A stretch of DNA of 64,000 nucleotides from Kiritimatiellia bacterium (GTDB lineage: Bacteria > Verrucomicrobiota > Kiritimatiellia > CAIVKH01): positions 1 through 64,000 of the forward strand of contig JAMLJG010000006.1 of assembly GCA_023953695.1 (NCBI GenBank). Reading direction: 5' to 3'. Of the stretch, positions 6,612-34,994 are shown piece by piece. The notes beneath the pieces were generated by a model. It worked only from the letters and a program-made list of their open reading frames with translations, was not told the origin of the DNA and searched no databases. Made by a program: the position numbers and the translations under genes. Every line of letters begins with the position of its first letter. Within the stretch, counting starts at the first letter, position 1.

Positions 6612-6669
6612 TCTGCCGCCCGCGGCATGGACACGGAACGGGTTTGTGCGCATACTGCCGGGATTGGAT

Positions 6670-7401: not shown

Positions 7402-8000
7402 ACGCTGTTTCCGTCATGCAAAACTGGGTCAATGCGCTCGTCGCGCCCATAGGGCCGATGGGCGCGCGGCTTGTACTTGCTGCGATCGCCGTCTTTCTTT
7501 TTGTGACCATGGTGGTCGCGGTGCGCGCAGGGCGCATTCACGTCTTCAGAAGCGTGATTCTCATTGCGCTGTCTCTTCTTTTCGCCGCGCTCGCGTGGAA
7601 CCTCCAACTGTTGCTCGAAGTGAATCGTATCACCTTTCTCGGCCGCATTCGCCTGCTCATGGGCGTCTTGAGTTTTGTGGTGTTGCTGGTGACGTTCGAG
7701 GCCGTGCGTCGGGCGCATTTGCGCGAGCGCTATGCGCTGTTGTGGATGTCCACGGGCATCATTCTGTTGCTGTGCGCGCTGTTCACGGATGTGTTGGACT
7801 TCTTCTGCGCGCTCTTTGGGATGCAGTATGTGACGTTCGTCGTCGCGGTCATCTTCACCTTCTTATTGCTTGTTGCGTTTCACTTCTCCATCGCGCTTTC
7901 GCGCTTGAGCGATGATCGCTCGCGTCTGGCACAGCGGTGCGCCCGTTTGGAGGCGCGGATCGAAGAATTGGAGAAGAAGAGTCGCCGCGCGGAGTCATGA
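7398..8000 (+). CDS. DUF2304 small membrane protein
   Basis: 200 residues with four to five hydrophobic helices and a short Arg/Glu-rich coiled tail (SRLAQRCARLEARIEELEKKS). The arrangement and its ATGA coupling to a GT2 gene are those of DUF2304, a family of membrane partners found next to polyprenyl-phosphate glycosyltransferases. The ATG overlaps the stop of the GT2 gene by 4 bp, and its own stop overlaps the start of the next glycosyltransferase by 4 bp, so the three are translationally coupled. The biochemical role of DUF2304 is not established; an assembly or flippase-accessory role is inference. Confidence 0.7.
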   Translation: MNAVSVMQNWVNALVAPIGPMGARLVLAAIAVFLFVTMVVAVRAGRIHVFRSVILIALSLLFAALAWNLQLLLEVNRITFLGRIRLLMGVLSFVVLLVTFEAVRRAHLRERYALLWMSTGIILLLCALFTDVLDFFCALFGMQYVTFVVAVIFTFLLLVAFHFSIALSRLSDDRSRLAQRCARLEARIEELEKKSRRAES

Positions 8001-9118: not shown

Positions 9119-9217
9119 GCGGTAGAGTTTGACAATTGAGCACCGTCACTCTACCAGTTGCGCGATGGCGCTACTGCGCACGCCGAGATTCGTTTTTTGC
9201 GAAAGATGAAGTGATTT

Positions 9218-10243: not shown

Positions 10244-10252
10244 GAGGGCAAT

Positions 10253-11455: not shown

Positions 11456-11486
11456 GGGGCGCTCGTTGGGTTGAGCGAGTTGGCGC

Positions 11487-11520
11487 AAAAAAGGCGCGGA
11501 TTGCTCCGCGCCTTCTTTGT
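11487..11520. terminator. Bidirectional rho-independent terminator
   Basis: A perfect GC stem AAGGCGCGGA / TCCGCGCCTT with a TTGC loop (11491-11514) is flanked by AAAAAA on the left and TTCTTTGT on the right. It therefore has a U-tract on both strands. It lies exactly between the convergent DUF3592 gene and pfp and probably serves both. Confidence 0.85.
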
Positions 11521-11540
11521 CTCGCCTATGGTGCGAGCGA

Positions 11541-12764: not shown

Positions 12765-12796
12765 GTGCGTTCTCCGCGTGGGTTAAAGGTGCCGCG

Positions 12797-12824
12797 ACTG
12801 TACCGAATCGGGCCCGCCTTGCAA
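12797..12824 (-). promoter_or_regulatory. Sigma70-like promoter for pfp
   Basis: On the minus strand TTGCAA (12819-12824) is followed after 16 bp by TACAGT (12797-12802), about 30 bp upstream of the pfp ATG. The TTGC(A/C/T) -35 with TA-rich -10 recurs in front of other genes here. Prediction by eye only. Confidence 0.5.
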
Positions 12825-13076
12825 GCGCGAGAGTTGAGAAAGAGACGGGCCCCTGTTCATCGTCAACCTCGTTCTGCAACTATGTGCGGACTTCTCTGAA
12901 AGGCCGAGTCAACGGACAAGATGCGGCTATTTATCGTTGTTCGTTTCTCCTTGTTTCTTTGCTGCTCAATGCGGTCCTAGCAGATTCCGTGATCACACTT
13001 CTCTTCGCGCCTTTATGCGCCCTATAGCTTCAGATCCCCGGCTCTCTACTCTGACCCAAGACGCCAGCGTCGCCGC
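12825..13076. other. Intergenic stretch without a recognisable gene
   Basis: Between the pfp promoter and the IS110 remnant no convincing coding frame, tRNA or terminator was found. Base composition drops around 12900-13010 (TTTATCGTTGTTCG, TTGTTTCTTTGC). This may be the edge of the foreign patch or the non-coding end of the IS110 element; IS110 elements lack conventional terminal inverted repeats, so the boundary cannot be set by eye. Confidence 0.4.
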
Positions 13077-13646
13077 TTATGCGACGCGCTCCGTCCGTCT
13101 TTGACGAGAGCAGCCGGGGACATTCCGACTCCACGGGCGCGCCTGATAAGGACGCTTCTCGTGAAGCACGCAAAAGATGATCTGACACATCCGCCGCGCG
13201 GTGATCATGATCGCTGTGTTGGCCTTCTTCCCGCGCGAGCGGTGATGGCGATAGAGGCCGCCGAAGTAGGCGTCGCACCCCACAGCCACCCACGCCGCCT
13301 CCACCAACGCCCAGCGCAACCACTTGTTGCAACCCGAGACCAACCGCCCGTGATAGGTCTTGTCGCCCGAGCTTGAGGTCGTGGGGATCAGGCCCGCGTA
13401 CGCGCTAAGTTGCTCCGACAGCCCAAACCGTTCGATGCCGTCGATTTCAGTAGCAATCACATTGCCAAGGATCGGCCCGATGCCTGGAATGCTCGAGAGG
13501 CACCCGACGGCCTCATCGCCCTTGCCTTCCAAAGCAATCTTCTCGTCGAGTTCGCGGATGTGCCGCTCCAGGGAATCGAGCATCTCGAGTTGTTGGCGTA
13601 GGAGCAGATCGTCGGGAGCCGCAAGCACCAGCTTGTTCAGCGCAGC
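13077..13646 (-). pseudogene. IS110/IS1111-family transposase, C-terminal remnant
   Basis: The frame encodes only the C-terminal Transposase_20 half: a coiled segment (LDSLERHIRELDEKI), then LSSIPGIGPILGNVIATEI, a hairpin-like G-I-G-P motif, FGLSEQLSAYAGLIPTTSSSG, and WLRWALVEAAW with the conserved Ser/Cys-G-N region just before (SGCNKWLR). The N-terminal DEDD/RuvC-like catalytic domain is absent: an in-frame TAG lies at 13647-13649 and unrelated attC-like sequence begins at about 13663. It is therefore a truncated, inactive copy. IS1111-type members of this family include elements that target integron attC sites, which fits its position exactly beside one. Confidence 0.85.
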
Positions 13647-13662
13647 CTAGTGTCTAGACGTG

Positions 13663-13721
13663 ACCCCAACACCTCGCCGATGCCTGAGCGAAGCAGTTTC
13701 GGCTTGAACGAATTGTTAGAC
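13663..13721 (-). other. attC-like recombination site (59-bp) downstream of crcB
   Basis: Read on the minus strand it begins GTCTAACAATTCGTTC one base after the crcB stop, continues AAGCCGA, and has GCTTCGC near the loop. These are the left-hand landmarks of classical aadA-type 59-base elements (RYYYAAC inverse core and GCCGA inner arm). TCGGC lies opposite GCCGA, and the far end is GTTGGGG, one base off the GTTRRRY core. The right half is degenerate and directly abuts IS110 sequence, so it may be disrupted. Recognition is by eye; no covariance-model score was computed. Confidence 0.7.
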
Positions 13722-13722
13722 C

Positions 13723-14106
13723 TCAGCGCGGGAACAGCGAGATGAGCTTGAGGCCCAGCCAGACCGCGGTGAAGCCAAGGATAACGCTGGCACCAGCATA
13801 CAGCGCAGCTACCAAAAGCTCGCTGCGGCGCACAAGGAGAATTGCGTCTAGGCCGAATGCGGAAAAGGTCGTGAAGCCACCGAGCAGGCCGGTGAAGAGG
13901 AATAGCCGTGTGCCGGGGCCGAACAACTCATATCGCTCGGTGAGACCGGCAAGGATGCCAATGGCCAAGCAACCCAGAACATTGACCGAGAATGTGCTGT
14001 AGGGGAAGCGTTCTTGCGCAGTCATGTGCAGCACGAAGCCACCAAGCTTGTAGCGTGCGACTGAACCGATGAACCCACCGAGACCTACGAGCAAGATGCT
14101 TTTCAT
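13723..14106 (-). CDS. crcB: Fluoride exporter CrcB/FluC, as a gene cassette
   Basis: 127 residues with four transmembrane helices. It forms a dual-topology dimeric channel that expels fluoride across the inner membrane. Typical signatures are GLGGFIGSVARYKL at the N-terminus, FSVNVLGCLAIGIL with the conserved Asn, and FTGLLGGFTTFSAFGLDA containing the G-G-x-T-T-F-S-x-F motif with the Phe-box residues. The gene is tightly bounded: GTTAGAC lies about 30 bp before its ATG, and GTCTAAC one base after its stop. It carries no fluoride riboswitch upstream (no room). Its composition is lower in GC than neighbouring genes. The context indicates a mobile integron cassette of about 475 bp rather than a resident gene. 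Confidence 0.93.
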   Translation of the reverse strand: MKSILLVGLGGFIGSVARYKLGGFVLHMTAQERFPYSTFSVNVLGCLAIGILAGLTERYELFGPGTRLFLFTGLLGGFTTFSAFGLDAILLVRRSELLVAALYAGASVILGFTAVWLGLKLISLFPR

Positions 14107-14135
14107 GCGGATGGAAAGTAATGTTTGTTACTGAG

Positions 14136-14204
14136 GTCTAACGTTCAGGGTGTGGGTTGAGCCGACCGCGCAGCGGGCGGCGAATACCCACCACCCTGTT
14201 GTTC
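14136..14204 (-). other. attC site between the two cassettes
   Basis: Read on the minus strand it ends in a perfect core GTTAGAC (14142-14136). The outer arms CAGGGTGGTGGGT (14198-14186) and ACCCACACCCTG (14157-14146) pair with one extrahelical base, the hallmark asymmetry of attC. The inner arms GCCGCCCGC and GCGGTCGGC pair around a TGC loop. The upstream inverse core is imperfect (GAACAAC, only AAC conserved). The last codons and stop of the upstream gene lie inside the site, as is common for cassettes. Confidence 0.8.
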
Positions 14205-14738
14205 TCCGTTCTTGATCGTCTTTCTGTCTCGGAAGAGGGCGTCAAGGACGGCGATCGGTTCAGGCACCTCGTTTGTCGTCACCGGCGAGTATGTGTGATG
14301 GCCCCATTCCTGAAACACCCCGTCCGGCTTTCTTTCCCACAGATACACCGAGGCACAAGGCATGGCGTGTGTGTCGCCTTGTCGCGACAACATCCCTCGT
14401 TCCACCGTGACCGTTAGTTCGTTCGTTCCGACCGAATGGGTCACTACCAGAGTGAAAAGAGGTTCGGTCAGTGCCTTCGCCCTCATCAACTCATCTGACC
14501 CTGTGAATGTCGAGAATAGTTCAGCGAGGCGATTGATCTCAGCAGGGTTGTCGATGCCCCTGATGTAGCTGGGCATTGTGATTGTCCCCTGGCTTTCCCT
14601 CCTGATTTGGATATGGCTGATGGCGTGCCTTCGTTCGACGGTCCAACTAGGCAGGCCGACATGGACCGTTTCGCCAAGAACTGCGGCCGCCGTTCCGACA
14701 AGTAGTGCAGTCACGAGTATTGGTCTCATCTTCTTCAT
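14145..14738 (-). CDS. Secreted protein of unknown function, probable cassette gene
   Basis: 197 residues. The start ATG at 14738 opens a clear signal peptide, MKKMRPILVTALLVGTAAAVLG, preceded by GGCGGAAAC. The mature part is mixed alpha/beta with HVGLPSWTVERRHAISHIQIRRES, a segment IRGIDNPAEINRLAELFSTFTGS resembling a ligand-facing helix, and YLWERKPDGVFQEWGHHTYSP. No catalytic motif or known family was recognised. The C-terminus (PPAARSAQPTP) is encoded by the attC hairpin. Lower GC than neighbours and the attC position suggest acquisition as a cassette upstream of crcB. The frame stays open upstream to 14996, but those residues lack a convincing start and would bury the signal peptide. Confidence 0.6.
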   Translation of the reverse strand: MKKMRPILVTALLVGTAAAVLGETVHVGLPSWTVERRHAISHIQIRRESQGTITMPSYIRGIDNPAEINRLAELFSTFTGSDELMRAKALTEPLFTLVVTHSVGTNELTVTVERGMLSRQGDTHAMPCASVYLWERKPDGVFQEWGHHTYSPVTTNEVPEPIAVLDALFRDRKTIKNGEQQGGGYSPPAARSAQPTP

Positions 14739-14994
14739 GTTTCCGCCGGAGAACCATTGAGTGATCAGAAGGCTTTCTGTGTTATAGACTATTGGGCGTC
14801 TTTTGCGGAAAGCCTCCCGAGCTGCAATAGACTGACCTTTCGGCCATGAGGGTATCGTGTCGGGCGAGATCGGACAATCCAAAAGCGACTCCTTGACGAG
14901 GCGCGCGATGTCCTGCGTGTTCAGCATTGCCCCTGGTGAGGCATGGTCTTGACATGGGCCACTCTCGGCTCGACCCGCCGCAACGTCAAAGACC
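14739..14994. other. Upstream region of the cassette gene
   Basis: The minus frame of the downstream gene is open through this stretch and would give a helical segment (AMLNTQDIARLVKESLL), with an ATG at 14927. No second core site GTTRRRY was found to mark the cassette's left boundary, and no clear promoter. It could be a remnant of another cassette gene or the leader of this one. Confidence 0.3.
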
Positions 14995-15043
14995 AACTCA
15001 CCGGCTCAGCATTCACCCACAAAGGTAGGGCGGTTTGGCTCAA
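14995..15043 (-). repeat. Dispersed 50-bp repeat, copy 1
   Basis: The minus strand reads TTGAGCCAAACCGCCCT, then ACCTTT, then GTGGGTGAATGCTGAGCC and GGTGAGTT. It matches 47418-47467 on the plus strand with one indel and about two or three substitutions. On its minus-strand 5' side the GGCGGTTT / AAACCGCC arms form a hairpin around GAGC. It lies 175 bp downstream of typA. Confidence 0.8.
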
Positions 15044-15218
15044 ACCGCCGCCACTCGTTCTGCCAAAAATCCTTCGTTCAGGCCCGAACCGATCCGGCGC
15101 GGTGGGCCAACGCGCCCGACCTACTCCGCGCTGCGAAATCAGTCACAAAGATCGGCAACCCGCGTATGACGACAAGACAAAGGACCGTGGCTGCGGGCCC
15201 GAGGGTGGGCGGGGCGGC

Positions 15219-17063
15219 CTAATCCGCGTCGGACACGCGCTGGTTGGCGCGTTTGCGCTGCGTGGCGTTGAGTACCTTCTTGCGGAGGCGCAAGCTGATG
15301 GGGGTGGCCTCGACGAACTCGTCTTGGGCGATATATTCGATCGCGGCTTCGAGTGAGAACTTGCGCGGGGGTTCGAGCATGATGCCCTTGCCTTCGCCTT
15401 GGCTGCGCATGTTGGTGAGGTGTTTCTCCTTCGTCGGGTTGACGGGGATATCCTCTGCGCGCGGGTTTTCGCCGACGATCATGCCTTCATACACCTCGTC
15501 GCCCGGCATGATAAAGAGTTTGCCGCGCTCTTGGAGTGTGTCCAGGGCGAATGCAGTTGCGACGCCCTTGTCCATGGAGACGAGCGTGCCGGAGAGGCGG
15601 CTGGTGACGGGGCCGCAGTGGGGGGCATATTCCTTAAAGATGTGGCTCATTACCGCGCGGCCGCTGGTGACGTTGACCATATCGGTTTCGAAGCCGATCA
15701 ACCCGCGTGTCGGGATGACGGCTTGCAGGTGAACGCGGCTGGTGGCGGGGGTGCTGGGATCGCCATGGTGTTGCATGTCGGTGATTTGCGCCTTGCGGCC
15801 GGCGAGGTTCTGCATCAGGTCGCCGAGGCGATCCTGGGGGGTATCCACCCAGAGCGTTTCGAACGGCTCGAGTTTCTGGCCATTCTCGCGCTTCATGATC
15901 ACTTCCGGGCGCGAGACGAGCATTTCGAAGCCCTCGCGGCGCATTTGCTCGACGAGTACGGCGATTTGCAATTCGCCGCGCGCGCTGACGAGGAAAATGT
16001 TGGGCACATCGGTGTCTTGCACGGATAGCGATATGTTGGTGCGGGTCTCTTTGTAGAGACGCTCGCGGAGCTGGCGGGAGGTGAGGAATTTGCCTTCGCG
16101 CCCGGCGAGGGGGCCGTCGTTCACGCAAAACTGCATTTGGATGGTTGGCGGGTCGAGTTCGACAAACGGAATGGGCTCGCGCGACTCGTTGTCGCAAAGG
16201 GTTTCGCCGATATCGAGGTCTTCGAAGCCGGAGATGCCGACGATGTTGCCCGCCTCGCCATTGGCCGATTCTTCCGTGCGCATTCCGCTAAATGCGAAGA
16301 CCTTGGTGACTTTCGCGCGCTCGCGTTTGCCATTGCGGTGGATACAGACAATGGAGTCGCCCGCGTCCACGCGGCCTGCGGTGATGCGGCCGATTGCGAT
16401 GCGCCCGACGAAGTCGCTCCAGTCGAGATTGCTCACGAGCATTTGGAATGGCGCTTCGATATCGCCGACCGGCGGCGGAATGACCTCGGCGATCAAGTCG
16501 AGCAAGGGGGCCATGCCGACGCGTTCGTCATCGAGGTGGCGAATCGCAAATCCGTCGCGCGCACTGGCGAAGATGAACGGGCAGTTGAACTGTTCCTCTG
16601 TTGCGTGCAAGTCGAGGAGCAGCTCGAGCACCTGATCGTGGACGCGATCGGGGTTGGCGTGTTCGCGGTCAATTTTGTTCACGACCACAATGGGTTTGAG
16701 TCCGTGATGGAGCGCCTTCTGCAGCACAAATCGCGTTTGCGCTTGCGGGCCATCCACTGCATCCACCACCAGCAAGACGCCATCCACCATCTTCATGATG
16801 CGCTCGACTTCGCCGCCGAAGTCCGCATGGCCGGGGGTATCCACAATGTTGATCGTGAAGCCCTTCCAGCCGATGGAGGCGTTCTTGGCCTTGATCGTGA
16901 TGCCCTTTTCGCGCTCGAGGTCCATGGAATCCATGGCGCGCTCCTCGACTTCTTCGCGCGCTGAAAAGGCGCCGCCTTCGCGGAGCATTTTGTCAACGAG
17001 TGTGGTTTTGCCGTGGTCAACGTGCGCGATGATGGCGACGTTGCGATATTTTTCAGTACTCAT
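15219..17063 (-). CDS. typA: Ribosome-associated GTPase TypA/BipA
   Basis: 614 residues from the ATG at 17063, the normal family length. It is a translational GTPase that acts on ribosomes during stress and cold and in 50S assembly. G1 is [15 protein letters not shown], the switch region [25 protein letters not shown] contains the E-R-G/K-I-T-I motif, G3 is [15 protein letters not shown] and G4 is [10 protein letters not shown]-like domains III and V and the BipA-specific C-terminal domain follow. A longer in-frame start at 17126 is rejected because the -10 promoter element lies between it and 17063. The C-terminus is basic ([14 protein letters not shown]), as usual. Confidence 0.95.
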
Positions 17064-23969: not shown

Positions 23970-26900
23970 TTAAGGCAGGCGAATGCGGATGCGGTATGCG
24001 CCGTGAGGGGCGGCGTTGGTGTCTTCAATGGGGAGCGGCGCGCCGGTGCCGGGCTGGTTGCTACGAATGGTGATCCACTCGTCTGTGGTGGCGAGGTCGG
24101 CCTTCCATTGCAGATCGTAGAGGCGCCCGTCAACGGACGGGGTGATGACGGTGGGGAGCGCGTCGGCGGTGATGCTGCTGATGAAGGGGTGATCGCTGAG
24201 GCTGATGGGCGATGTGCCGGCGATGAACTCGGCAAAATTGCTGTAGCCGTCGCCATCTGCGTCTTGGTGCGCCTTCGACTGATCGGCGTCTTGGCCGGTG
24301 GGGTGGTCGAACCAGCCGCGCATCCACCAGTCGGGCAGTCCATCGCCATCGGTATCCACGTCGCCGATTTTCTTGACGCCGATGCCTGAAACGCGCGCGT
24401 TGTCGTCCCACGGGATGAAGTGGAGGTCGAGCTGCGCATCGGCGACGCTGCTGGTGAAGGTTTGCTGGATTCCGATGTTTTTCCCGCCGGCGGTGGCGAA
24501 GATATCGAAATTGGTGAGCGCGCGGGCGCCCTCGATGTAGAGATCGAAGATGCGCTGGCCGGGTGCGTTCACCCACGTTTCGGCCTGCAGGAGTGTAATT
24601 TCATACACGCCTTCGGGCACATCGAAGCGATAGTCGAGGGTGCCGTCGGTAGAGCTGTAGCGTTCGCTTTGATAGAGGGTCTGGGCGCTTGGGCAGACGT
24701 TTGAAATGGTGTTGCCGATGAAGCCGACAGTGCCGTTGAGATAGCCGAATGAGCCGGGGCTCCACGCTTGGTCGGCTTGCCAAGTCGAGGTGTCGCAATT
24801 TGTGATGGCGGTGGCGCTGCCTGCGTTCAGGCGTTGTTCGTAGGCGCCGGGGACATTGAAGAAGCGCAGGGTGAACGGGCTGACGGCCGAGTAGTTGCCG
24901 GAGGAGTCGCGCGCCCGCGCGGCGATGTGGCGCACGCCGTTGAGGAAGTTTCGCGAGTCGAGGGAATAGCTCCAGGTGGTGGTGCCGGTGGCGCCATACC
25001 AATCGCCGCCGTCCAATTGAATCTCAACCGCTGAAACGGCGACGTTGTCCGCTGCGGTTCCGCTGATGACAAGGGTGTCGCTCACCATTGCGCCATCGGC
25101 GGGCGTTTGGACGAGGAGGGTTGGCGGCACGGCGTCGGTATAGACTGCGGAGGCGGTGTGGAACATGGTTTCGAACGCGCCGTAGAGGTGGTTTCCGGAT
25201 TCGGCGTCAAAGGCATTGGTGCTGACGCGAGCCTGGATGCGCGCCTTGCCGGGAAATCCGGGGCTGGGCGTGAACGTCATGACCGTTTGATTCGAGGTCC
25301 ACGCGAATGTGCCGCCGACTGCTGGTTGGGTGGAAAAGGCTGCCTCTGTTGCGGCGGTGTTCATCGGTTTGCTGAATGTCAGCGTGATCGGCGCTGTGGC
25401 GATGACGTTGGTGGAGTCGTGCGCGGGAGTTTGGGCGATCACGAGGGGGTCGAGGGGGAGCAGGCGATTCTTGGGAAGGAACATTTTGTAGCCGCCTGCG
25501 GGCACGGCGATGGGGGGCATGCGGTCGCTGCCGGAGGTGGTGGTGAGGGTTTCGTTTGTGTCGAGAAGATTCACCATCACGGTCCCTGCGGGATAATAGG
25601 TGGGGCGGTTGGTGAGTGTTTGGCTGGCTGTGGCGGTGTTGAAGACCACGAGGATTTCCTCGCCGATGTCTGTCAGTGTGCGCGCATAGGCGAAGAGGCC
25701 GGGGCCGCCGGAGTTGGCCCAGCGGTTCTGGTGGGATCCGCGCCGGAGGCTGGGGTAGAGGCGGCGCAGATTGTTCAGTCGGGCAATGTGCAGGAAGGAG
25801 CCCTGCGTCATGTTGAAGTTGTCGCCGAGTGAGGGGCCCGACTCGAATTGGCCGTCGAACATATCTTCTCGGTTGTTGGGATCGCCGCTTCCGTTGAAGT
25901 TTTGTTCGGTGCCGTAGTAGAGGCAGGGGATTCCGCGGCTCGTGTAGAGCCAGTTCAGGGCGAGTGCGAGGCGGTTGGTGTTGTTGCCCGCCTTGTTCAT
26001 GAAACGGGCTTGGTCGTGGTTATCGAGAAAGGTGACGAGGCGATAGTGGGAGTAGGGGTCGTAGTAGGTCGAGATTCGGTTGTAGCGGTCTTCGATCTGG
26101 CGCGTGTTGCCGGAGGCTTCTGCAAAGACGCTGTTCACGGAGAAATAGAGGGGATAGTCGAGAATGGAGTCGTTCGCGAACGCGCCGCCCGCCTTGGTTC
26201 CGGTGTAGTAGCCCGCTTTGGCGTCGGAGCCGTCATAGACCTCGCCGAATTGGAAGAAATTGGTTTTGCCGAGCGAGGTCGCATAGGCGCGAATTGCGGG
26301 GTTGAAATATTGCCAGACGCCAATTTCCGCGTGCTTCACCGTGTCGAGGCGAAAGCCATCGAAATCAGCAACGCGGATCCAGTGTTTATAGATTTCCACG
26401 AGGTTGGAGCGCACATACTCCGTTTCTGTGCGCAGATCGTCGAGTCCGCTCAACTCGCCGAGGATTTGTTCGGGATCGGTGTAGTTCTTGATGACTCCGT
26501 TGTTGTGGAAGTTGGTGAGCAAATTGAACGGGGCGGGATATCCCTGACCATTTCGCCAGCGCGGTGGGTAGCCATTGATGTTGAACGCGGTGTTCCACGC
26601 AGCGTTCGCGCTATCAATTCGGTCGCCTTGGTGATTCAGCACAATGTCGAGGCAAACATAGATGCCCAGGTCGTGCGCGGCATTGACCATTTCCTTGAGG
26701 TCGTTGGTCGTGCCCCAGTTCGGTTGAAGCGAATAGAAGTTGTCCGCGCCATATCCGTGGTAGCCCGAGTTGCCATAGTTTTGCGGGATCGGTGTGATCC
26801 AGAGCGCGGTTGCGCCGAGCGCCTTGATATAGTGCAGTTTTTCTTGGATCCCTTTGAAGTCGCCGCCGTGGATGCGGCGGCTGTTCGCGGGGCTTGCGCT

Positions 26901-27086
26901 CGATTGCGGGTTTGCGTTGTTGTTGGAAGGGTCGCCGTCGTTAAAGCGGTCTGTGAAGATGAAATAGAAGTTCTGATCGCGCCAGTCGTCGGGCGATGGG
27001 AAGTGCGATTGTGCGCGAGCCGGTTCGACTGCGCCGAAAAGGCAGCCCAGCAGAACTACCAAGCCCATAGAAATTCGCCTCTGCAT
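23970..27086 (-). CDS. Secreted GH13 alpha-amylase with multidomain C-terminus
   Basis: 1038 residues from ATG 27086. Signal peptide to EPARAQ. The catalytic barrel (about 35-450) shows DIVLNHQG, GFRLDTVKH with nucleophile D248, FGEVYDG with acid/base E282 and FLDNHDQ with D358. It hydrolyses alpha-1,4-glucans outside the cytoplasm. After a C-domain come an SbsA-like Ig domain (ITLTFSKPMN), a bacterial Ig domain (LVISGTAADNVAVSAVEIQLDGG), a CBM-like domain (EGVYEITLLQAETWVNAPGQRIFDLYIEG), a calcium-type D-x-D-G-D-G-L-P-D repeat (DTDGDGLPDWW ... DADGDGYSNFAEF) and the short C-terminal module also found at 41052. The ABC importer at 18188-22348 could take up its maltodextrin products (inference). 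Confidence 0.92.
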   Translation of the reverse strand: MQRRISMGLVVLLGCLFGAVEPARAQSHFPSPDDWRDQNFYFIFTDRFNDGDPSNNNANPQSSASPANSRRIHGGDFKGIQEKLHYIKALGATALWITPIPQNYGNSGYHGYGADNFYSLQPNWGTTNDLKEMVNAAHDLGIYVCLDIVLNHQGDRIDSANAAWNTAFNINGYPPRWRNGQGYPAPFNLLTNFHNNGVIKNYTDPEQILGELSGLDDLRTETEYVRSNLVEIYKHWIRVADFDGFRLDTVKHAEIGVWQYFNPAIRAYATSLGKTNFFQFGEVYDGSDAKAGYYTGTKAGGAFANDSILDYPLYFSVNSVFAEASGNTRQIEDRYNRISTYYDPYSHYRLVTFLDNHDQARFMNKAGNNTNRLALALNWLYTSRGIPCLYYGTEQNFNGSGDPNNREDMFDGQFESGPSLGDNFNMTQGSFLHIARLNNLRRLYPSLRRGSHQNRWANSGGPGLFAYARTLTDIGEEILVVFNTATASQTLTNRPTYYPAGTVMVNLLDTNETLTTTSGSDRMPPIAVPAGGYKMFLPKNRLLPLDPLVIAQTPAHDSTNVIATAPITLTFSKPMNTAATEAAFSTQPAVGGTFAWTSNQTVMTFTPSPGFPGKARIQARVSTNAFDAESGNHLYGAFETMFHTASAVYTDAVPPTLLVQTPADGAMVSDTLVISGTAADNVAVSAVEIQLDGGDWYGATGTTTWSYSLDSRNFLNGVRHIAARARDSSGNYSAVSPFTLRFFNVPGAYEQRLNAGSATAITNCDTSTWQADQAWSPGSFGYLNGTVGFIGNTISNVCPSAQTLYQSERYSSTDGTLDYRFDVPEGVYEITLLQAETWVNAPGQRIFDLYIEGARALTNFDIFATAGGKNIGIQQTFTSSVADAQLDLHFIPWDDNARVSGIGVKKIGDVDTDGDGLPDWWMRGWFDHPTGQDADQSKAHQDADGDGYSNFAEFIAGTSPISLSDHPFISSITADALPTVITPSVDGRLYDLQWKADLATTDEWITIRSNQPGTGAPLPIEDTNAAPHGAYRIRIRLP

Positions 27087-27128
27087 GCGTGCTGAATGTA
27101 GCAAGGCGCGTGCCGGAGGTGAAGCGTT

Positions 27129-28079
27129 TTAGCTTGAGAAGGGTTCGACAATTTCCACGGCCGGAAATTCGGTGGTGATTGCGTCCAATTGATCGGCCGT
27201 AAAGAGCATTTTGATGTTCGGACCCGCGTCCATTGTGAAATAGAGCGGAAGCCCCTCTTTTCGCAGCGCCCAGATTTTTCGCATGGTTGCGACGGATTCG
27301 GGAAGCCAGAAGAGAACGGGTGGCCACGCCGCGAGACCCGTGGCGTGCATGGCGAGGGCATTCGATTCTGCCGTCCGGCCCAATAGTTCGAAGTCGCGCG
27401 TTTCGATGGACTCCTTGATGAGGGCGATGTCGTGCGAAACCTTGATGGGCCAGGCTTCATAGAGCGACGAAGTGAGTCGGGTGCATTTCATTGCCTGCCG
27501 CGAGCTGATTTCCTTCTCCAGCTCCGAAAGTCGCAGGACGCCGAGGCGCAGGTCGGGCCATGTGCCTTTGACCTGTTCTGCATAGCTGTCCAAGCCGTCC
27601 TCATCCGCGCCTGCATTCCACTCGACGAACCCACGCAAGACGGAGCGACAGGCGCTGCCGCTGCCCAATCGAGCGAGGATGGATAGGTTCTTTGTGGAGA
27701 GCGCCCAGCCGAACAGATCATCCAGCGCGAGAACGAGCGCAGCGAACCCCGAAGCCGAGGAAGCCATCCCCGCGGCTGTGGGAACTGTGTTCTGCGTATC
27801 CACCCGGAAGAAAACGGTGGGCGAGGGGCGGAAGAGATCCAGGAAGGTTGCGAGCGCCTTGGCGAACTTTGTCGTGGCGGGCATTTCCCTGTTATTGAGT
27901 GTCACGATGTCGCGCGGCTCTGGCGAAAGACACACGCTCGTCGTTGTCCCCAATTTCCCGAGCGAAATGGATAAACTCGGGGTGATTGGGAGGTTCAATT
28001 CTTCGTTTCGCTTGCCCCAGTATTTGCAGAGCGCAATGTTCGACGGGGCGAATGCGGACGCGCAGTACTTAACGGGCAT
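27129..28079 (-). CDS. mvaD: Diphosphomevalonate decarboxylase (GHMP superfamily)
   Basis: 316 residues from ATG 28079. It would convert mevalonate 5-diphosphate to isopentenyl diphosphate with ATP. Family marks: FAPSNIALCKYWGKRNEELNLP, PTAAGMASSASGFAAL (glycine-rich phosphate loop), LGSGSACRS and YFTMDAGPNIK with the conserved Asp. The chosen start follows CGGGGTC and gives the normal N-terminus; a GTG or ATG further out (28139) would add about 20 residues without clear function. No other mevalonate-pathway gene is in the window, so it may be a scattered pathway member or a related phosphomevalonate-type decarboxylase. Confidence 0.85.
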   Translation of the reverse strand: MPVKYCASAFAPSNIALCKYWGKRNEELNLPITPSLSISLGKLGTTTSVCLSPEPRDIVTLNNREMPATTKFAKALATFLDLFRPSPTVFFRVDTQNTVPTAAGMASSASGFAALVLALDDLFGWALSTKNLSILARLGSGSACRSVLRGFVEWNAGADEDGLDSYAEQVKGTWPDLRLGVLRLSELEKEISSRQAMKCTRLTSSLYEAWPIKVSHDIALIKESIETRDFELLGRTAESNALAMHATGLAAWPPVLFWLPESVATMRKIWALRKEGLPLYFTMDAGPNIKMLFTADQLDAITTEFPAVEIVEPFSS

Positions 28080-28247
28080 TTGACCCCGTTTCTCGCCGAG
28101 CAGCGGCGTCACAACATCAATTTTGCGAAGTGAACTCATTTGGTGGCGCAGTATCGCAGAGCCGGGTGAAACGATCAAGCCTTGCCCGGCCACACTGCTT
28201 AAATTAAGCCGATTTTAGAGGCAGATTCCAATTTTCTAAAAAACATA

Positions 28248-28331: not shown

Positions 28332-31094
28332 ATGAAGCATTCGGTGAAGCGTTTTATTTTAAGCAGTTGCCTGCTGCTTTTGGCTCTTGCGCCCTTAAGC
28401 CGGGGGCAGGGCGGCAGCGAGGTTTCGCCCAATGCGATTCCGGAAGCGATGACGACGGACCTCAAATTCACCGTCAATCGCTTGGTCACCGGTGGCAATC
28501 TGCGCGAAGCGGTGCCCTATCTTGAGGAACTGATCCGACGATTCGGGCAGACCAAGGTTGCGCAGTATGACCGCGAGCTTGAGCGCTACTATTACTTCCT
28601 CGGCGCCGCGTGGATTCAGTCGGAAGAGTATGAGTTCGCTGTCGAGGCGCTCGAGAAATATGCGCAGCGCTTTCCAAAAGCAAACGATGCTCCGATCGTT
28701 CTCGATTGGCTGGGTGACTGCTATCGCTTGACGGAGGATTTTCGCAAAGCGGCCACCGTCTACGAAAACCTCCGCGCGCAATACGCGTTGAAAGGCGCGA
28801 TGCTCGACGAGGTGATGTCGAAGGAGGCCATCTGCCTTGTTCAGCTCGAAGAGTGGGAGAAGGTGATTCCATTGCTGACGCAACTGCTGGAGCAGGCGCG
28901 CGATCCGGAATTGCGCGGCATGGCGGCAACCACGCTCGTTCGCGCCTATCTCTCGCTGGATCAGGTGGACAAGATCGTTCAACTGCTGCCGCAGGTGATG
29001 GCGATTTCACAGGCGCGGTATGATGTGGATTTCAACCTGATGCTGATCCGCGGGGGCGACACGAAATATCATGCGAGCGATTATCCGAACGCCCTGATGC
29101 TCTATCAGCTCGCGCTGACGAAGGAAGAGTTGTTGGTGCGGCTGGAAGAGTTGATCGGACGCACAGAGCGCGCCATCCAAGCGTGGAAGGACTTTCAGAA
29201 TATCCGTGGCTTCACAGCGCTCAAGACGCGCCTCAAGTCGCTGCAATCGCAGCGCGAAGATTTGCTTCGTCGGGACAGCTTCACGGAAGAACTTCTGTTC
29301 CGCATGGGCCAGACCTATTTCGAGATGAATCGAAAGTGGGAGGCGTTCTGGACGTTCTGGTCCATTTGGAAAACACTTCCGGAGAGCAAGGATGCGCGGC
29401 AGGCGCTCTTCAGCTCGTTTCAACTGGCGGCGGAGCTGAATATGGATTCGCGCGCGATCGAGTTCGGACAGACCTTTTTGGACACTTTCGGGCTCGGCGA
29501 CTATTTTGACGAAGTCTCTCTTCAGTTGGCCAATCTCCAGCTTCGCAACCGCAATTACGACGCGGCGATCAAGGTGGTTGAGCAGGCGCTGGCGGCGAAT
29601 CCCGACCACGCATTCAAGGACCGCTTGATTTTCATCACGGGTTACTGCCTGTTTCAGAAGGATCAACTCACCGAGGCGCTGGCCGCGTTCACGGAAATCC
29701 GAACCCACCATCCCGACAGCGAGGCCGAGGAGGGCGCGAATTACTGGATCGGCCTGACCTATCTTTTCCTGCAGCAATACGAAGATGCGCGCGATGAGTT
29801 CAGCGAGTTCGTGAATCGCTATGTGAGCGGCATCTATTATGAGGACGCGCGCTTTCGGTTGGGCGTCGCGGAATATGGGCTGGGCGAGTTCGTCGCGGCG
29901 CGCGGGCACTTTGAGAAGTTCATCGCCGATTTTCCATCCAGCCCGCTGCTGGCCGAGGCCTATTCGTTCCTCGGCGATATCGCGGGATCGGATGCGCGCC
30001 TGAGCGAGGCGCTCGAGCTCTATGCGCAAGTGCCGAAGCATACCTCGCGCATGAATCAAATTGATCACGCTGCGTTCCAGACGGGCAAGATTTTGGAGCT
30101 GCAAGGGAAGTTCGGAGAGCTGGCGGACTACTTTACCCGGTATATCCAAACGTATCGAAACAAGGGGCAGTTCACGGAGGCGATCTATCGAATCGGCTTT
30201 GCGCGGAAGATGCAGGGCGACTTTAGCGGCATGCTCTCCGCCTATGAGCAGGCTGTACGCCGCTATGCGGACGATGCCAGTGCGCTCGGCGTTGATCTGA
30301 TTCTGAAGGATTGGGTGGATCAATCCATCCAGACCGAGGGCCGTCCTCCCGAGGCGAAACTGCGCGAGTGGCTCGACAATGTGAAGGCGCAAAAGACCAA
30401 GACCGCGTGGCTGCGCTATCAATGGGCGCTGAGCGATCTGGCGAAGTTGGATCCCGCGCCGGAGTTCACCCCGGAACTGCTCGAATTCGCGACGCCCGCA
30501 GTGTTGGAGTGGATGGGCCGAACGACGGCGGCCCGCAACCCGACGTTGGCGCGAAAGGCGTTTGAGAAGTCCGTCAAAGAGTTCCCCGACAGTTTGTGGG
30601 CGGGCGACTGCATCCTGGAGTGGGCGGAACTGGAGGCCGCTTCCGACCAGTATGCCAAGGCGCAGGCGCTGTTTGATCGCTATATGACCTCGTTTCCCAC
30701 CGCTGAAAAAGCGGGTGCGGCGCTCAAGCGATCCGCAGATATGTTGGTCGCCCTGAAAAAATATCCGGAAGCTGTGGAAAACTATCTGCGGATTCTCGAA
30801 ATGAAAGAGTGGCGGGGACCGCTGTGGCCCGAGAGCCTTTATCAGATTGGATTTGCCCTTATGGAGCAGGGCAAATTGCAGGAGGCGTTCGGCTATTTCC
30901 AGCGCGTGTATGTGATGTATGGCGGCTATCCTGAGTGGTGCGCCCGCGCCTATTTGCAGAGCGGCATTGCGCTCGAAAAGTTGAATCGCCGCCGCGAGGC
31001 CGTTGCGACGTATGAGGAAATGCTGACCCACGAAAACCTGCGCGCTCTCGAATGGGGGCGCGAGGCGGAGAAAAGATTGGCGGCGCTGCGATGA
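28332..31094 (+). CDS. Large secreted TPR protein, first gene of ExbBD-VWA operon
   Basis: 920 residues. Signal peptide MKHSVKRFILSSCLLLLALAP ending at about SRGQG. The rest is a long solenoid of tetratricopeptide-like helix pairs with recurring W-x-x-x-x-x-x-A, FPKANDAPIVLDWLGDCYRL, HHPDSEAEEGANYWIGLTYL, FPSSPLLAEAYSFLGDIA and FPTAEKAGAALKRSADML segments, i.e. about 18-20 units resembling the YbgF/BamD type. It would lie in the periplasm as an extended protein-binding surface. It overlaps the next gene by ATGA, and the six genes run without gaps larger than 20 bp. Length and repeats are seen; the partner is unknown. Confidence 0.85.
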   Translation: MKHSVKRFILSSCLLLLALAPLSRGQGGSEVSPNAIPEAMTTDLKFTVNRLVTGGNLREAVPYLEELIRRFGQTKVAQYDRELERYYYFLGAAWIQSEEYEFAVEALEKYAQRFPKANDAPIVLDWLGDCYRLTEDFRKAATVYENLRAQYALKGAMLDEVMSKEAICLVQLEEWEKVIPLLTQLLEQARDPELRGMAATTLVRAYLSLDQVDKIVQLLPQVMAISQARYDVDFNLMLIRGGDTKYHASDYPNALMLYQLALTKEELLVRLEELIGRTERAIQAWKDFQNIRGFTALKTRLKSLQSQREDLLRRDSFTEELLFRMGQTYFEMNRKWEAFWTFWSIWKTLPESKDARQALFSSFQLAAELNMDSRAIEFGQTFLDTFGLGDYFDEVSLQLANLQLRNRNYDAAIKVVEQALAANPDHAFKDRLIFITGYCLFQKDQLTEALAAFTEIRTHHPDSEAEEGANYWIGLTYLFLQQYEDARDEFSEFVNRYVSGIYYEDARFRLGVAEYGLGEFVAARGHFEKFIADFPSSPLLAEAYSFLGDIAGSDARLSEALELYAQVPKHTSRMNQIDHAAFQTGKILELQGKFGELADYFTRYIQTYRNKGQFTEAIYRIGFARKMQGDFSGMLSAYEQAVRRYADDASALGVDLILKDWVDQSIQTEGRPPEAKLREWLDNVKAQKTKTAWLRYQWALSDLAKLDPAPEFTPELLEFATPAVLEWMGRTTAARNPTLARKAFEKSVKEFPDSLWAGDCILEWAELEAASDQYAKAQALFDRYMTSFPTAEKAGAALKRSADMLVALKKYPEAVENYLRILEMKEWRGPLWPESLYQIGFALMEQGKLQEAFGYFQRVYVMYGGYPEWCARAYLQSGIALEKLNRRREAVATYEEMLTHENLRALEWGREAEKRLAALR

Positions 31095-32077
31095 GAACAA
31101 ACCCATTCCGCAGACATTGGAGAGTGTCGGCGCTCGCGCTGTTGATCGCGGTGTCGGGCGCAACCGCTCGCGCGGCGGACGTGCCTGCGATCGTCTATAT
31201 TCGAAATGCGCGCGGCGCAATGGATGTCACGCTGACCGGGCGCCAGAAGAACTCGGTATATGCGCGACCCGCGAATTTGCAGGCGGGCATGACGATTCTC
31301 AACGCGGATGACATCGAGGCTATTCAGATACAACTCGATGGCGCCGCGCTTGCTGCCGCAGAAAATGCTGTGCGCGCTGGAAAGCTGAACGAGGCGGTGA
31401 CTCTCTATCGCCAGGTTGTTGCGCCCGTTTTGCCTTATCTGGACATTCGATCGAACAACGCCATTGCTCCGGCGTTTCGCTATGCGGAATTGCTGCGGAT
31501 GCGCGCGTTGTGGGGCGAATCCATAAAGATTTATCGGGCGCTGCAGAACGCAGCCGATCTCGATACGCGCCAAGCCGCGACCGCGTGGGATGCCTATGCG
31601 TTGACGAAGCAGGGTGATGCCGAGGCGGCGGCGAAGGTAATCGAATCGTTGGCCATTGACGATCCGAGGCACCTCGGTTTTGTCGCCGCTTCGCTCGCTC
31701 GGGCGCGGATTGCCCTCGCGCGGAGCGAGGACGAAGCCGCGCTCGATTGGACCGCGCGCGCCGCCGCGTTGGGGCGGCTCGACAATCCGCTATACCCCGA
31801 GACGCTCTTGCTCGCGGCCGAATGCTATGAGCGGATGGCGCGCAAAGCCCCCGCAAAATTGCGGCAAAGCTCTGTCACGCAGACGAGCGATGGCGAGGTG
31901 AGGCAACCTCCGATGACGGCATCCGAGTTCGCCGCCGTCGCCCGCAGCATTTACACGCAGATCACCGTCCTTTTCCCGAAGACGGAACCCTCACAAATCG
32001 CTGCAGACCGATTGAGCGCCGAGGCCGAACAGGCCACCGCGCCCGCGCAGCCTCTTTCACCAGGAGACCCAAAATGA
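31091..32077 (+). CDS. Secreted TPR-like protein, second gene of operon
   Basis: 328 residues from ATG 31091, overlapping the upstream stop by 4 bp. A signal peptide runs to ATARA. A beta-rich N-terminal portion (VPAIVYIRNARGAMDVTLTGRQKNSVYARP) resembles an SH3-like or nucleation domain, followed by ILNADDIEAIQIQLDGAALAAA and helical repeats (KLNEAVTLYRQVVAPVLPYLDI ... SLARARIALARSEDEAALDWTARAAAL). The C-terminal end is low complexity, rich in Ala, Gln and Pro. It is presumably periplasmic. I do not recognise a named family. Confidence 0.75.
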   Translation: MRTNPFRRHWRVSALALLIAVSGATARAADVPAIVYIRNARGAMDVTLTGRQKNSVYARPANLQAGMTILNADDIEAIQIQLDGAALAAAENAVRAGKLNEAVTLYRQVVAPVLPYLDIRSNNAIAPAFRYAELLRMRALWGESIKIYRALQNAADLDTRQAATAWDAYALTKQGDAEAAAKVIESLAIDDPRHLGFVAASLARARIALARSEDEAALDWTARAAALGRLDNPLYPETLLLAAECYERMARKAPAKLRQSSVTQTSDGEVRQPPMTASEFAAVARSIYTQITVLFPKTEPSQIAADRLSAEAEQATAPAQPLSPGDPK

Positions 32078-32841
32078 ATGTCCACACAATAAAAGCTCTA
32101 TTCGCCGCGATCGCGTTGGCGTTTTGCATCGCCGCGCCCGCGCTGGCCCAGGACAACGAGGCGTCGGATGCGCCGCCCGTTGCGGCCCAGAAGCAGACCT
32201 TTGGTCAAATCCTGAAAACGGGCGGCTGGACCATGTGGCCGCTCGGCGTCTGCTCTGTAGCGGGTGTCGGCTTGCTGATTTTCAATGCATTGGTGTTGCG
32301 TCCGAGCCGCATGTTGAAGCCCGAGATCACGGCGCAGATCAAAGATGCCGCCTCCACGCTCGATGTCGAACGCGCGCGGACGCTGTGCGCGGCGAATCCT
32401 TCTCCGGTGACAACCATCATCGCCGCCGGGCTCGACCGCATTCGCGGAGATGAGCTGCACCTCGAATCCATCGAGAAGGGGATGGAGGAACAGTCGCTGC
32501 AGGAGATTGCCAAATACATGCAGCCGATCAACTATCTCTCCGTCATTGCGACCATCAGCCCGATGATCGGGCTGCTGGGCACGGTGTCCGGCATGATCAA
32601 GGCCTTCCAGGCGATGGCGTATGGCGCGATGGGCCGCCCCGAGTTGCTCGCGAACAACATCGGCGAAGCGCTCATCACGACGGCCACGGGACTCATCATT
32701 GGTATTCCCGTGATGGTATTCTACTTCTTCTTCAAGAACCGATTCACCTCGGTCGTGGCCTCCATCAATCGCTCGTGCGGCGACCTTCTGGAGTCGCTGG
32801 CCTCCGCGGGGCGGAACGCGGCCTCGACCCCTTCCGAATAG
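32074..32841 (+). CDS. MotA/TolQ/ExbB-type proton channel with signal peptide
   Basis: 255 residues. It begins with a cleavable signal peptide (MNVHTIKALFAAIALAFCIAAPALAQ), then a first true span at ~52-72 (WPLGVCSVAGVGLLIFNALV), a cytoplasmic region SIEKGMEEQSLQEIAKYMQPINYLSVIATISPMIGLLGTVSGMIKAF, and spans at ~148-170 and ~192-215 (EALITTATGLIIGIPVMVFYFFF). The P-M-I-G-L-L-G-T-V-x-G-M-I motif is diagnostic for the MotA/TolQ/ExbB family, whose pentamer conducts protons and drives ExbD/TolR. ATG overlaps the preceding stop. It pairs with two ExbD genes downstream. Confidence 0.92.
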   Translation: MNVHTIKALFAAIALAFCIAAPALAQDNEASDAPPVAAQKQTFGQILKTGGWTMWPLGVCSVAGVGLLIFNALVLRPSRMLKPEITAQIKDAASTLDVERARTLCAANPSPVTTIIAAGLDRIRGDELHLESIEKGMEEQSLQEIAKYMQPINYLSVIATISPMIGLLGTVSGMIKAFQAMAYGAMGRPELLANNIGEALITTATGLIIGIPVMVFYFFFKNRFTSVVASINRSCGDLLESLASAGRNAASTPSE

Positions 32842-32860
32842 TCCGCGCGCAACTCTCGCC

Positions 32861-33271
32861 ATGAAGATACACATTCCAGATGATGGATCGGGGGGGTTCC
32901 AAATGGCCCCGTTGATTGACATCGTGTTCCTGCTGATCATTTTCTTCATGGTCGCCGCGGACATGAATCAACAGGCGCGCATCCCGCTGGAAATCCCATC
33001 CGCTTCACACGCCACGCGCCCGAAGGACCCCAGCGGACGCGGCGTCATTTCCATCAAGGAGAACGGCGACTTTTTTGCCGGCCAGACGAAGGTGACGGCC
33101 GACCAAATTCGCGAGCTGGCCGAACAGCGCGTGAAAGAGAATCCGAATTTCCGAATCTTTCTGCGCGCGGCCAAGGGCACCCCGCACAAGTTCGTGCGCG
33201 AGGCGATGCAAGCCACCGCAGAGGGCGGCATTGCCGACATCATATTTTCCGCATACGCAACTGAACAATGA
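32861..33271 (+). CDS. ExbD/TolR-family protein 1
   Basis: 136 residues. A short cytoplasmic N-terminus is followed by one transmembrane helix, MAPLIDIVFLLIIFFMVAADM, with the proton-carrying Asp of the family (P-L-I-D-I-V-F-L-L). Then comes a periplasmic domain with VISIKENGDFFAGQTKVTADQIRELAEQRV and FLRAAKGTPHKFVREAMQATAEGGI, the alpha/beta TolR fold. The stop overlaps the start of the second ExbD by 4 bp. Works with the ExbB-like channel to turn proton flow into force on periplasmic partners. Confidence 0.92.
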   Translation: MKIHIPDDGSGGFQMAPLIDIVFLLIIFFMVAADMNQQARIPLEIPSASHATRPKDPSGRGVISIKENGDFFAGQTKVTADQIRELAEQRVKENPNFRIFLRAAKGTPHKFVREAMQATAEGGIADIIFSAYATEQ

Positions 33272-33726
33272 AGATCCCACTCGCAACCCTGGAAACTACG
33301 AAAGAAGACGAAGAGCTTCAGATCGCGCCGCTCATTGACTGCGTGTTCCTGCTGCTGATCTTCTTCATGGTGACCTCCTCCCTGCACAAGTTTGAGAGCG
33401 ATCTGGGCATCCAGCTTCCCGGTCGCGTTGCGCAGTCGGAACAGTTGGTGATGCCCGATGAACAGTTGGTCGAGATTCTCGACGATGGCCGCGTGATGTT
33501 GAACAACCAGGTGTTCGATTCGCCGACCTCGCGCGATATGCCCGAATTGACGGCGACGCTTATCCGCTTTCGGCAGGCGTGCGAGCTGGCCAAAGTGCGC
33601 CCGCTGCTGACCGTGCAGGCGTCCGGCCAATCCCGACATGAGCGCCTCATTGATGTGCTCAACGCGGCCTCCGGCGCCGATATCAAGAATGTGTCCATTG
33701 GGCTGGGCGACGAGGAGGGAACATGA
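33268..33726 (+). CDS. ExbD/TolR-family protein 2
   Basis: 152 residues. Span IAPLIDCVFLLLIFFMVTSSL carries the conserved Asp. The periplasmic domain is longer than in the first copy: VEILDDGRVMLNNQVFDSPTSRDMPELTATLIRFRQA and PLLTVQASGQSRHERLIDVLNAASGADI. A two-ExbD arrangement suggests a hetero-dimeric force transducer in the channel, as in some gliding and PVC systems (inference). It overlaps the VWA gene by ATGA. Confidence 0.92.
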   Translation: MKIPLATLETTKEDEELQIAPLIDCVFLLLIFFMVTSSLHKFESDLGIQLPGRVAQSEQLVMPDEQLVEILDDGRVMLNNQVFDSPTSRDMPELTATLIRFRQACELAKVRPLLTVQASGQSRHERLIDVLNAASGADIKNVSIGLGDEEGT

Positions 33727-34994
33727 CGAACATTGCCCCCAAGAAGCCGCGCACGCGCTCGCTGTTCTACACGGTGTTTATGGCCAGCCTCATGCTTCAT
33801 GTGGGGGCAATTCTGATCATCAGTCCCATCGTCCTCTTTTCCTATTTCTTCAAGCGCGAGGTTGCCTTCGAGCCCGCGCCGGAGGTGGAGCGCCGTCTGG
33901 AGCCGCGGAAGCTGCAATACAAGGTTCACGTGCAGGAGACGCAGAAGCGGAGTGGTCGCCCGCAGGTGCAGCCGCGGCTGACCGCCGACCGCGTGGGCGA
34001 TATATCGCTGCCGGACATCAAGCTCGATATCGCGCCGATCAAGAATCCGAATCTTCCGCGCATGGCGAACTTTTCCGGGTCCGGCATAGGAACGGGATTT
34101 GGCGATGGCGAGGGGAGTGGCGGTCTCTCTGCGGGGTTGTCCTCGGTCAACTTCTTCGGCGTGCGCGCACAGGGCGAGCGCGTCTTCATTATTATAGACG
34201 TTTCCGCCAGTATGATCGAAGACCTGCGCGGTGGCTTTAACGGTTTCAAGCTGGTCAAAGACGAAGTCGGGCGCCTCATCAAGAATTTGTCGCCCGGCAC
34301 CTTCTTCAACATTGGCACCTTTGCGCACAGTTTTGATCAATTCAAAGACAATCTGGTGCTCGCCAATCCCGACAACAAACAGGCCGCGATTTCCTGGCTC
34401 GCGAAATACAACATGCCGAATGGCAGACTCGAAACGTTCAGCCCCAACAACGAATTGCCCGTGGATGTGGACACCTACAAAGTCGGGAAGGGCGACAAGG
34501 GCGGCTCCACTCGGCAGGACCTCGCGCTTGCGCACGCGATGAATCAGGGCGCCGATGCGGTCTTCATGATGACCGACGGTCAGCCGCGCCTCATGCGCCA
34601 TCTCACTGATGAGGAGTGGGAGGAGTGGAAGAAGAAATACTGGACGGACGCCGAGAAGAATCGGGTCGCTGCCGCGCGCGAGCGCGAAAAGAAGGCCTTG
34701 GAAGAGGAGAACAAGCGGCGCGCCAAACGCGGCTTGCCGCCCAAGGTCGAAAGCGAGTATGGCATTGCCGAGTTGAAATGGCCCGAAATGCCGCGCGAGA
34801 GCATGATTGACTACATCGCCGCCCTGCAGAAGAAGCTCTATGTGGACGCCCAGAAGCGCCCGGCCCGCATATATGTCATCGGCTACGAAACGCTGCCCGA
34901 AGACGAAGAGTTCTTGCGCCAGATCGCCCGCAAGAACGGCGGCACCTTCCGCCATCTCAAGAACCTCGTTAAAGACAACCGCTACGCGCAGTGA
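33723..34994 (+). CDS. TonB-like-anchored von Willebrand factor A protein
   Basis: 423 residues. One N-terminal span (~15-42) and a proline/charged periplasmic linker (EPAPEVERRLEPRKLQYKVHVQETQ) look like TonB. Where TonB would have its C-terminal domain there is instead a VWA domain: RVFIIIDVSASMIEDL with MIDAS D159-x-S-x-S163, GGSTRQDLALAHAMNQGADAVFMMTDGQP with the later MIDAS Thr and Asp. A charged helical insert (SDEEW...KAREREKKALEEENKRR) follows, and RIYVIGYETLPEDEEFLRQIARKNGGTF closes the fold. MIDAS domains bind metal and a partner's acidic residue. As the last gene of the operon it is the probable output of the ExbBD motor. Confidence 0.88.
   Translation: MTNIAPKKPRTRSLFYTVFMASLMLHVGAILIISPIVLFSYFFKREVAFEPAPEVERRLEPRKLQYKVHVQETQKRSGRPQVQPRLTADRVGDISLPDIKLDIAPIKNPNLPRMANFSGSGIGTGFGDGEGSGGLSAGLSSVNFFGVRAQGERVFIIIDVSASMIEDLRGGFNGFKLVKDEVGRLIKNLSPGTFFNIGTFAHSFDQFKDNLVLANPDNKQAAISWLAKYNMPNGRLETFSPNNELPVDVDTYKVGKGDKGGSTRQDLALAHAMNQGADAVFMMTDGQPRLMRHLTDEEWEEWKKKYWTDAEKNRVAAAREREKKALEEENKRRAKRGLPPKVESEYGIAELKWPEMPRESMIDYIAALQKKLYVDAQKRPARIYVIGYETLPEDEEFLRQIARKNGGTFRHLKNLVKDNRYAQ

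Follow-up and report, generated by a model that had tools for sequence, protein, structure and literature searches.

Known ExbBD-type motors drive a few arms, namely TonB, TolA, and the MotB-like and Agl parts. What else such a motor might pull, and to what end, is the question raised by a six-gene operon, TPR1-TPR2-ExbB-ExbD1-ExbD2-VWA (Table 1), in a stretch of 64,000 nucleotides (nt) from a Kiritimatiellia bacterium (GenBank assembly GCA_023953695.1, contig JAMLJG010000006.1, positions 1 to 64,000; hereafter the window). The operon quite probably encodes a Tol/Ton-like envelope machine driven by the proton motive force, a member of the vWA force-transducer family in which the vWA head would grip a ligand for pulling. 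All six open reading frames (ORFs) proposed in a first-pass annotation of the window are present on the + strand, and four of the five junctions (TPR1/TPR2, TPR2/ExbB, ExbD1/ExbD2 and ExbD2/VWA) are 4-nt ATGA stop/start overlaps. The sole non-overlapping junction is that between ExbB and ExbD1, with a gap of 19 nt; this spacing suggests that the operon is translationally coupled.

The motor genes are recognized most directly. The calls for ExbB, ExbD1 and ExbD2, like that for TPR1, are backed by both Pfam and NCBIfam. The channel residues Thr170 and Thr203 of ExbB are invariant in the family (21 of 21 sequences), as are the transmembrane (TM) aspartates of the two ExbD proteins, Asp20 of ExbD1 and Asp24 of ExbD2 (19/19 in each case). 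The combination of channel threonines and TM aspartate that marks ExbB/ExbD motors, as in the 5:2 motors, is therefore present in the operon, which, to judge from these residues, probably encodes a proton-driven motor with two ExbD subunits, as had been proposed earlier.

The calls for TPR2 and VWA rest on structure because their sequence matches are sub-threshold. For VWA, Pfam yielded sub-threshold vWA-domain matches only (0.022) and no TonB_C match, and a sequence search of solved structures returned no significant match. In an AlphaFold2 model built from a 29-sequence alignment, a membrane helix (residues 9-42) leads through an arm of low confidence to a vWA domain (approximately 140-412). 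Foldseek matched this head to vWA structures, among them inter-alpha-inhibitor, PilB and BatB, with E values down to 6.6e-9. The membrane helix carries a Ser22-x3-His26 motif, with Ser22 kept in 25 and His26 in 27 of the 29 transducers, and the TM stretch, YTVFMASLMLHVGAILIISPIVLFSYFF, contains no Asp. The residues of the metal ion-dependent adhesion site (MIDAS) are likewise conserved: D159 and D285 in 29/29, S163 and T263 in 27/29, and S161 in 26/29, with T in the other three. These features bear out the earlier description of a TonB-shaped arm with a vWA/MIDAS head. The same annotation had placed the head in the periplasm, an orientation that is favored by the KKPRTR stretch preceding the single TM helix, according to the positive-inside rule. 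Invariant across the 29 transducers are D159, D285, R62, L64, V70, P80, R85, P97 and several glycines. The Gly-rich arm (residues 49-146) is among the best conserved parts of the protein, and this strong conservation suggests that the arm binds something or bears force instead of simply spacing head and membrane apart.

Two secreted TPR solenoids had also been claimed, and this description holds in part. Both proteins are predicted to be exported, and TPR1, which starts with a signal-peptide-like stretch, consists of tandem TPRs resembling the repeats of CpoB/YbgF and BamD. TPR2, in contrast, is only partly TPR. Its start was set at the in-frame ATG at 31091 that overlaps the TPR1 stop, and by sequence it has only a sub-threshold TPR match (Pfam, 0.32). 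Its AlphaFold2 model, of high confidence (predicted local distance difference test, pLDDT, 89.5), shows a signal peptide, a five-strand β-barrel (residues 34-80) and about 11 helices, which match TPR structures in Foldseek. As modeled, TPR2 is thus a small β-barrel followed by TPR helices, a feature added by the present analysis.

Thirty-seven named loci were collected by a search with the vWA alignment; the closest relatives among them are genomes from metagenomes, labeled Kiritimatiellae, Lentisphaerae or Verrucomicrobia, which suggests that the host is an uncultured, Kiritimatiellia-type bacterium. The absence of conserved gene order had been set beforehand as grounds for refuting the first-pass reading, and the upstream TPR and motor genes recur in the window order in 24 of these 37 loci, from many families, with the TPR2 slot occupied but unscored in two of the 24 and TPR1 divided between two ORFs or cut by the contig start in a few. 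Of the others, approximately seven either are truncated at contig ends or have no TPR part, and the remaining six consist of a vWA gene with no motor genes nearby. The gene order is conserved far beyond chance. Matches to the vWA search were found in 127 of 240 genomes class-wide and in 117 of 288 phylum-wide, both of which are upper figures, since hits close to the 0.001 limit may stem from other vWA proteins. A seventh conserved partner was considered and rejected: a secreted protein of about 160-200 amino acids (aa), without Pfam match in the three copies scanned, directly follows VWA in eight named loci of one sub-clade (L068, L069, L072, L076, L080, L082, L083 and L101) and is absent from the window. 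Other recurrent flanking genes were discarded, being either ORFs antisense to the motor genes or ABC ATPases of a generic kind. As a separate observation, in clade g45 (L103-L110, L113, L114 and L117-L132) many members have at least seven vWA arms per genome, mostly without adjoining motor genes, and in L112 five vWA genes stand in tandem, four of them complete and the fifth present in part.

A family of vWA force transducers with TolQR-like motors has already been described in bacteria of the Planctomycetes-Verrucomicrobia-Chlamydiae (PVC) group, from a search seeded with Tichowtungia (Williams-Jones et al., 2025, PMC12204202, Fig. 4a-b). Its loci comprise a TPR gene, a tolQ-like gene, two different tolR-like genes and a vWA gene, its transducers have a SHLS motif with an essential His, an AlphaFold3 model docks the helix at the side of the motor through this His, and neither a function nor a deletion phenotype is presented there. 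Since this architecture is the one reported, the operon of the window is a further member of the family, with which it shares the TM helix with its conserved His, the flexible arm of about 100 residues, the vWA head and the gene order. It differs from the published loci by a second exported TPR-type gene with a β-barrel start and by keeping only half of the strict SHLS motif. Sister arms with toroid or PA14 heads are not mentioned in the passages of the report that were consulted. The first-pass annotation had mentioned similar ExbBD-VWA groupings in PVC bacteria with no described function; the function is indeed not described, but the grouping itself has been published (PMC12204202). In a second family of that report, TPH-vWA, a membrane-tethered vWA protein also lies beside a TolQ homologue, but there the proton Asp resides in the vWA protein and ExbD is lacking (PMC12204202). 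Membership of this second family was rejected, given the two separate ExbD genes of the window and the Asp-free TM helix of its VWA protein. The operon resembles TonB-ExbB-ExbD and Tol-Pal in its ExbB/ExbD residues, its Ser-x3-His TM helix and its three-part transducer, and it departs from both in having a vWA domain in place of the TonB/TolA C-terminal domain, two ExbD types and TPR partners.

Gene order, conserved residues, folds and the clade-specific pairing of heads with engines are firm. On the mechanism that we consider likely, a proton channel formed by ExbB would surround a pair of ExbD helices, probably contributed one each by ExbD1 and ExbD2. The VWA TM helix would dock outside ExbB via Ser22/His26, like TonB and TolA. 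The flexible arm, of about 100 residues, would carry the vWA head into the periplasm, where the head would grip its ligand through the MIDAS metal site, and proton flow would then exert a pull on the gripped complex, so as to loosen, move or remodel it. In this scheme, substrate specificity would lie in the head, and the five upstream genes would supply the engine. As to the ligand and the cellular task, one can only guess; the best candidate may be one of the operon's own exported TPR proteins, or else an outer-membrane or surface complex scaffolded by the TPR proteins. The first-pass proposals that the head binds the TPR proteins through its MIDAS, and that the system could drive secretion, surface assembly or the movement of large material, are likewise conjecture.

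Several points weigh against this reading. Arms without adjoining motor genes occur in 6 of the 37 loci and in clade g45, a few family members have Thr at MIDAS Ser positions, and other residues (F/A/I and V/T/I) stand here at the positions of the Leu and the second Ser in the strict SHLS motif. The reach of the arm is not established, because residues 43-139 are modeled mostly at low pLDDT. In favor of the reading, the layout is shared, as matched by gene names and order only, by a Fibrobacter succinogenes cluster (FSU_2396-2403: OmpA, TPR, TPR, ExbB, ExbD, ExbD, transducer) whose transducer is a TonB-family protein and not a vWA protein. In that cluster, OmpA (FSU_2396) adjoins FSU_2397-2403 (2399 not listed). 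Envelope proteomes contained the products of these genes, in several cases only or mainly on cellulose, where up-regulation was reported; FSU_2397 was reported to form part of a complex in outer-membrane vesicles, together with cellulases, OmpA and a fibroslime protein (PMC6851124, PMC4619616). Of the outside clues to function this parallel is the best, and by analogy it weakly hints that large complexes of the outer membrane or surface are involved.

The system with the vWA arm has sisters, with the same five-gene engine layout and different end-domains. At L101, another five-gene engine comes after the vWA operon; its arm joins a Ser-x3-His membrane helix through a linker to an alpha/alpha-toroid domain, which is squalene-cyclase-like and sub-threshold in Pfam. 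A search with this toroid arm gave a match in 197 of the 240 class genomes. Motor genes lie directly before the toroid gene in 19 of 20 fetched loci (L197 with broken frames), with mutL adjoining in about half; an automatic motif scan of the toroid sequences (12/40) used too strict a criterion to serve as a count. In the ExbB tree, the vWA-type and toroid-type engines each form one group, with supports of 90/89 and 97/98, respectively, and the window ExbB falls within the former. One of the seven MotA/ExbB-type matches of the host genome, on contig C7, lies inside the toroid-type clade. Its engine has no toroid gene, the end of ExbD2 being approximately 106 nt from mutL, and the toroid gene is found at that place in the same-genus genome G001 (L185). 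The host also encodes a stand-alone arm with a PA14 head. Toroid arms of other genomes match this arm over its residues 5-138 with their N-terminal parts (E down to 2e-17), so that the two kinds of arm are homologous on the N-terminal side and have different heads. Complete PA14 arms were found only in G000 (the host), G002 and G005 among the 58 genomes searched, and the host copy may serve the leftover toroid-type engine on C7. A profile comparison of vWA and toroid arms aligned 36 columns with the Ser-x3-His motifs in register (E 2e-4, probability 47%), a weak suggestion of homology given that TM helices can align by composition alone.

From these arms, we lean somewhat toward the view that the Kiritimatiellia share one five-gene proton-driven chassis whose arm carries exchangeable heads, be they vWA, alpha/alpha toroid or PA14. 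An open-access literature search returned nothing relevant on toroid-headed or PA14-headed ExbBD arms, and the toroid sister operon and the PA14 arm, which suggest such exchangeable heads, are the main addition to the published family. If this view is correct, force-driven envelope machines would be a modular class in which a new head means a new job, and the heads would be a direct means of finding out what such machines hold. It would also provide a candidate role for an envelope motor class that is widespread in Verrucomicrobiota and for which no bench study appeared in the searched literature.

Table 1. Positions of the operon genes in the window and of other motors and arms in the host genome (G000).
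Feature	Location	Strand	Remarks
TPR1	28332..31094	+	920 aa, exported; Pfam TPR_6 2e-36; first gene of operon in relatives as well
TPR2	31091..32077	+	328 aa, exported; structure-based call; mechanical ORF begins 31052
ExbB	32074..32841	+	ExbB/TolQ-like proton-channel subunit; Pfam MotA_ExbB 4.6e-28
ExbD1	32861..33271	+	ExbD1/TolR-like; Pfam ExbD 1.8e-20; TM Asp20
ExbD2	33268..33726	+	TolR-like, second type; Pfam ExbD 7e-18; TM Asp24
VWA	33723..34994	+	423 aa vWA force transducer; TM helix, arm (49-146), C-terminal vWA domain
Tol-Pal cluster	C5		TolQ, TolR, TonB_C protein read as TolA, TolB, Pal
Second VWA operon	L052 (G000:C4:53500-73000), 8710-15259	-	Other sub-clade of vWA-type engine; TPR2 slot unscored
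TPR-TPR-ExbB-ExbD-ExbD set adjoining mutL	L060 (G000:C7:31000-50000), 8668-13986	-	
TPR-ExbB-ExbD, then 260-aa protein without Pfam match	L061 (G000:C13), 6646-11104	+	Possible further engine and arm
ExbB-ExbD-TPR set	C37		
ExbB-like protein	L062 (G000:C23), 7742-9232	-	496 aa, long C-terminal extension
PA14-headed stand-alone arm	L153:769-1932 (G000:C2)	-	Ser-x3-His membrane helix; PF07691, 2.7e-21

Among the other roles that such an operon might have, the one that survives best, although we regard it as unlikely, is envelope maintenance in the manner of Tol-Pal, in which the machine would shift a scaffold of the periplasm or outer membrane as the cell grows or divides. The resemblance of TPR1 to CpoB/YbgF and BamD repeats would fit this role, as would the near-universal presence in the class of the toroid sister operon, often beside mutL and not beside nutrient genes. 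The host, however, already has a complete Tol-Pal cluster (C5), and the VWA operons are patchy (127 of the 240 class genomes with a match), which makes them ill-suited to an essential maintenance role.

Somewhat less likely still is a substitute for TonB that powers the import of large nutrients, such as polysaccharide, across the outer membrane. In the host assembly (2.62 Mb in 39 contigs, 93.6% complete), the Plug domain of TonB receptors was searched for and not detected, and the sole TonB_C match is the C5 protein of the Tol-Pal cluster. A TonB-receptor partner was therefore rejected for this genome, in which, unlike in the TonB system, the vWA arms serve no recognized TonB receptor; the same absence can be read in favor of a substitute. 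Yet Plug domains are present in 204 of the 240 class genomes, including most operon-bearing relatives, and they are about equally common in genomes with strong vWA matches as overall, so that receptors and vWA operon look independent. The Fibrobacter counterpart is raised on cellulose, and some of the many vWA arms of g45 genomes lie beside sulfatases, glycosidases or an operon for 2-keto-3-deoxygluconate (KDG) kinase and 2-keto-3-deoxy-6-phosphogluconate (KDPG) aldolase. The latter link to polysaccharide loci was convincing by eye and was rejected, since its signal was gone against random stretches of the same genomes: by Pfam, sulfatases made up 7 of 83 neighbors vs. 6 of 98 control genes, and fucosidases 5/83 vs. 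4/98. A signature count in g45 gave 12 sulfatases in 302 genes near vWA arms vs. 4 in 276 control genes. Furthermore, no conserved outer-membrane channel gene lies beside the operon.

The Agl-Glt motor of Myxococcus is made up of one TolQ-like and two TolR-like subunits (AglR-AglQ-AglS). The motor of the operon has the same composition, with a different transducer, and it might accordingly be asked whether it drags a surface adhesion complex via the vWA head and a TPR scaffold, for gliding or other surface movement. A possible gliding role was suggested by Williams-Jones et al. (PMC12204202). We hold such a role to be improbable: no Glt-type genes turned up beside the examined operons, in which no search was aimed at Glt genes, and the cultured relative Pontiella agarivorans was reported to be without motility (PMC10880615). 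Finally, a chance grouping of ExbBD-like genes with vWA and TPR genes is scarcely credible, stand-alone vWA relatives notwithstanding, as it is refuted by the conserved gene order, alongside the overlapping junctions and the matching clades of engines and heads.

On balance, the first-pass interpretation is partly supported, and a vWA-headed, motor-driven envelope machine is the reading that we prefer. As for the setting of the operon, a comparison with plasmid records gave no match. It is adjoined on the - strand (27129-28193) by a gene for diphosphomevalonate decarboxylase (TIGR01240, 3.7e-86), an enzyme of the mevalonate pathway, next to which a long exported protein (23970-27104, - strand) has an N-terminal sequence that, judged by eye only, is α-amylase-like.

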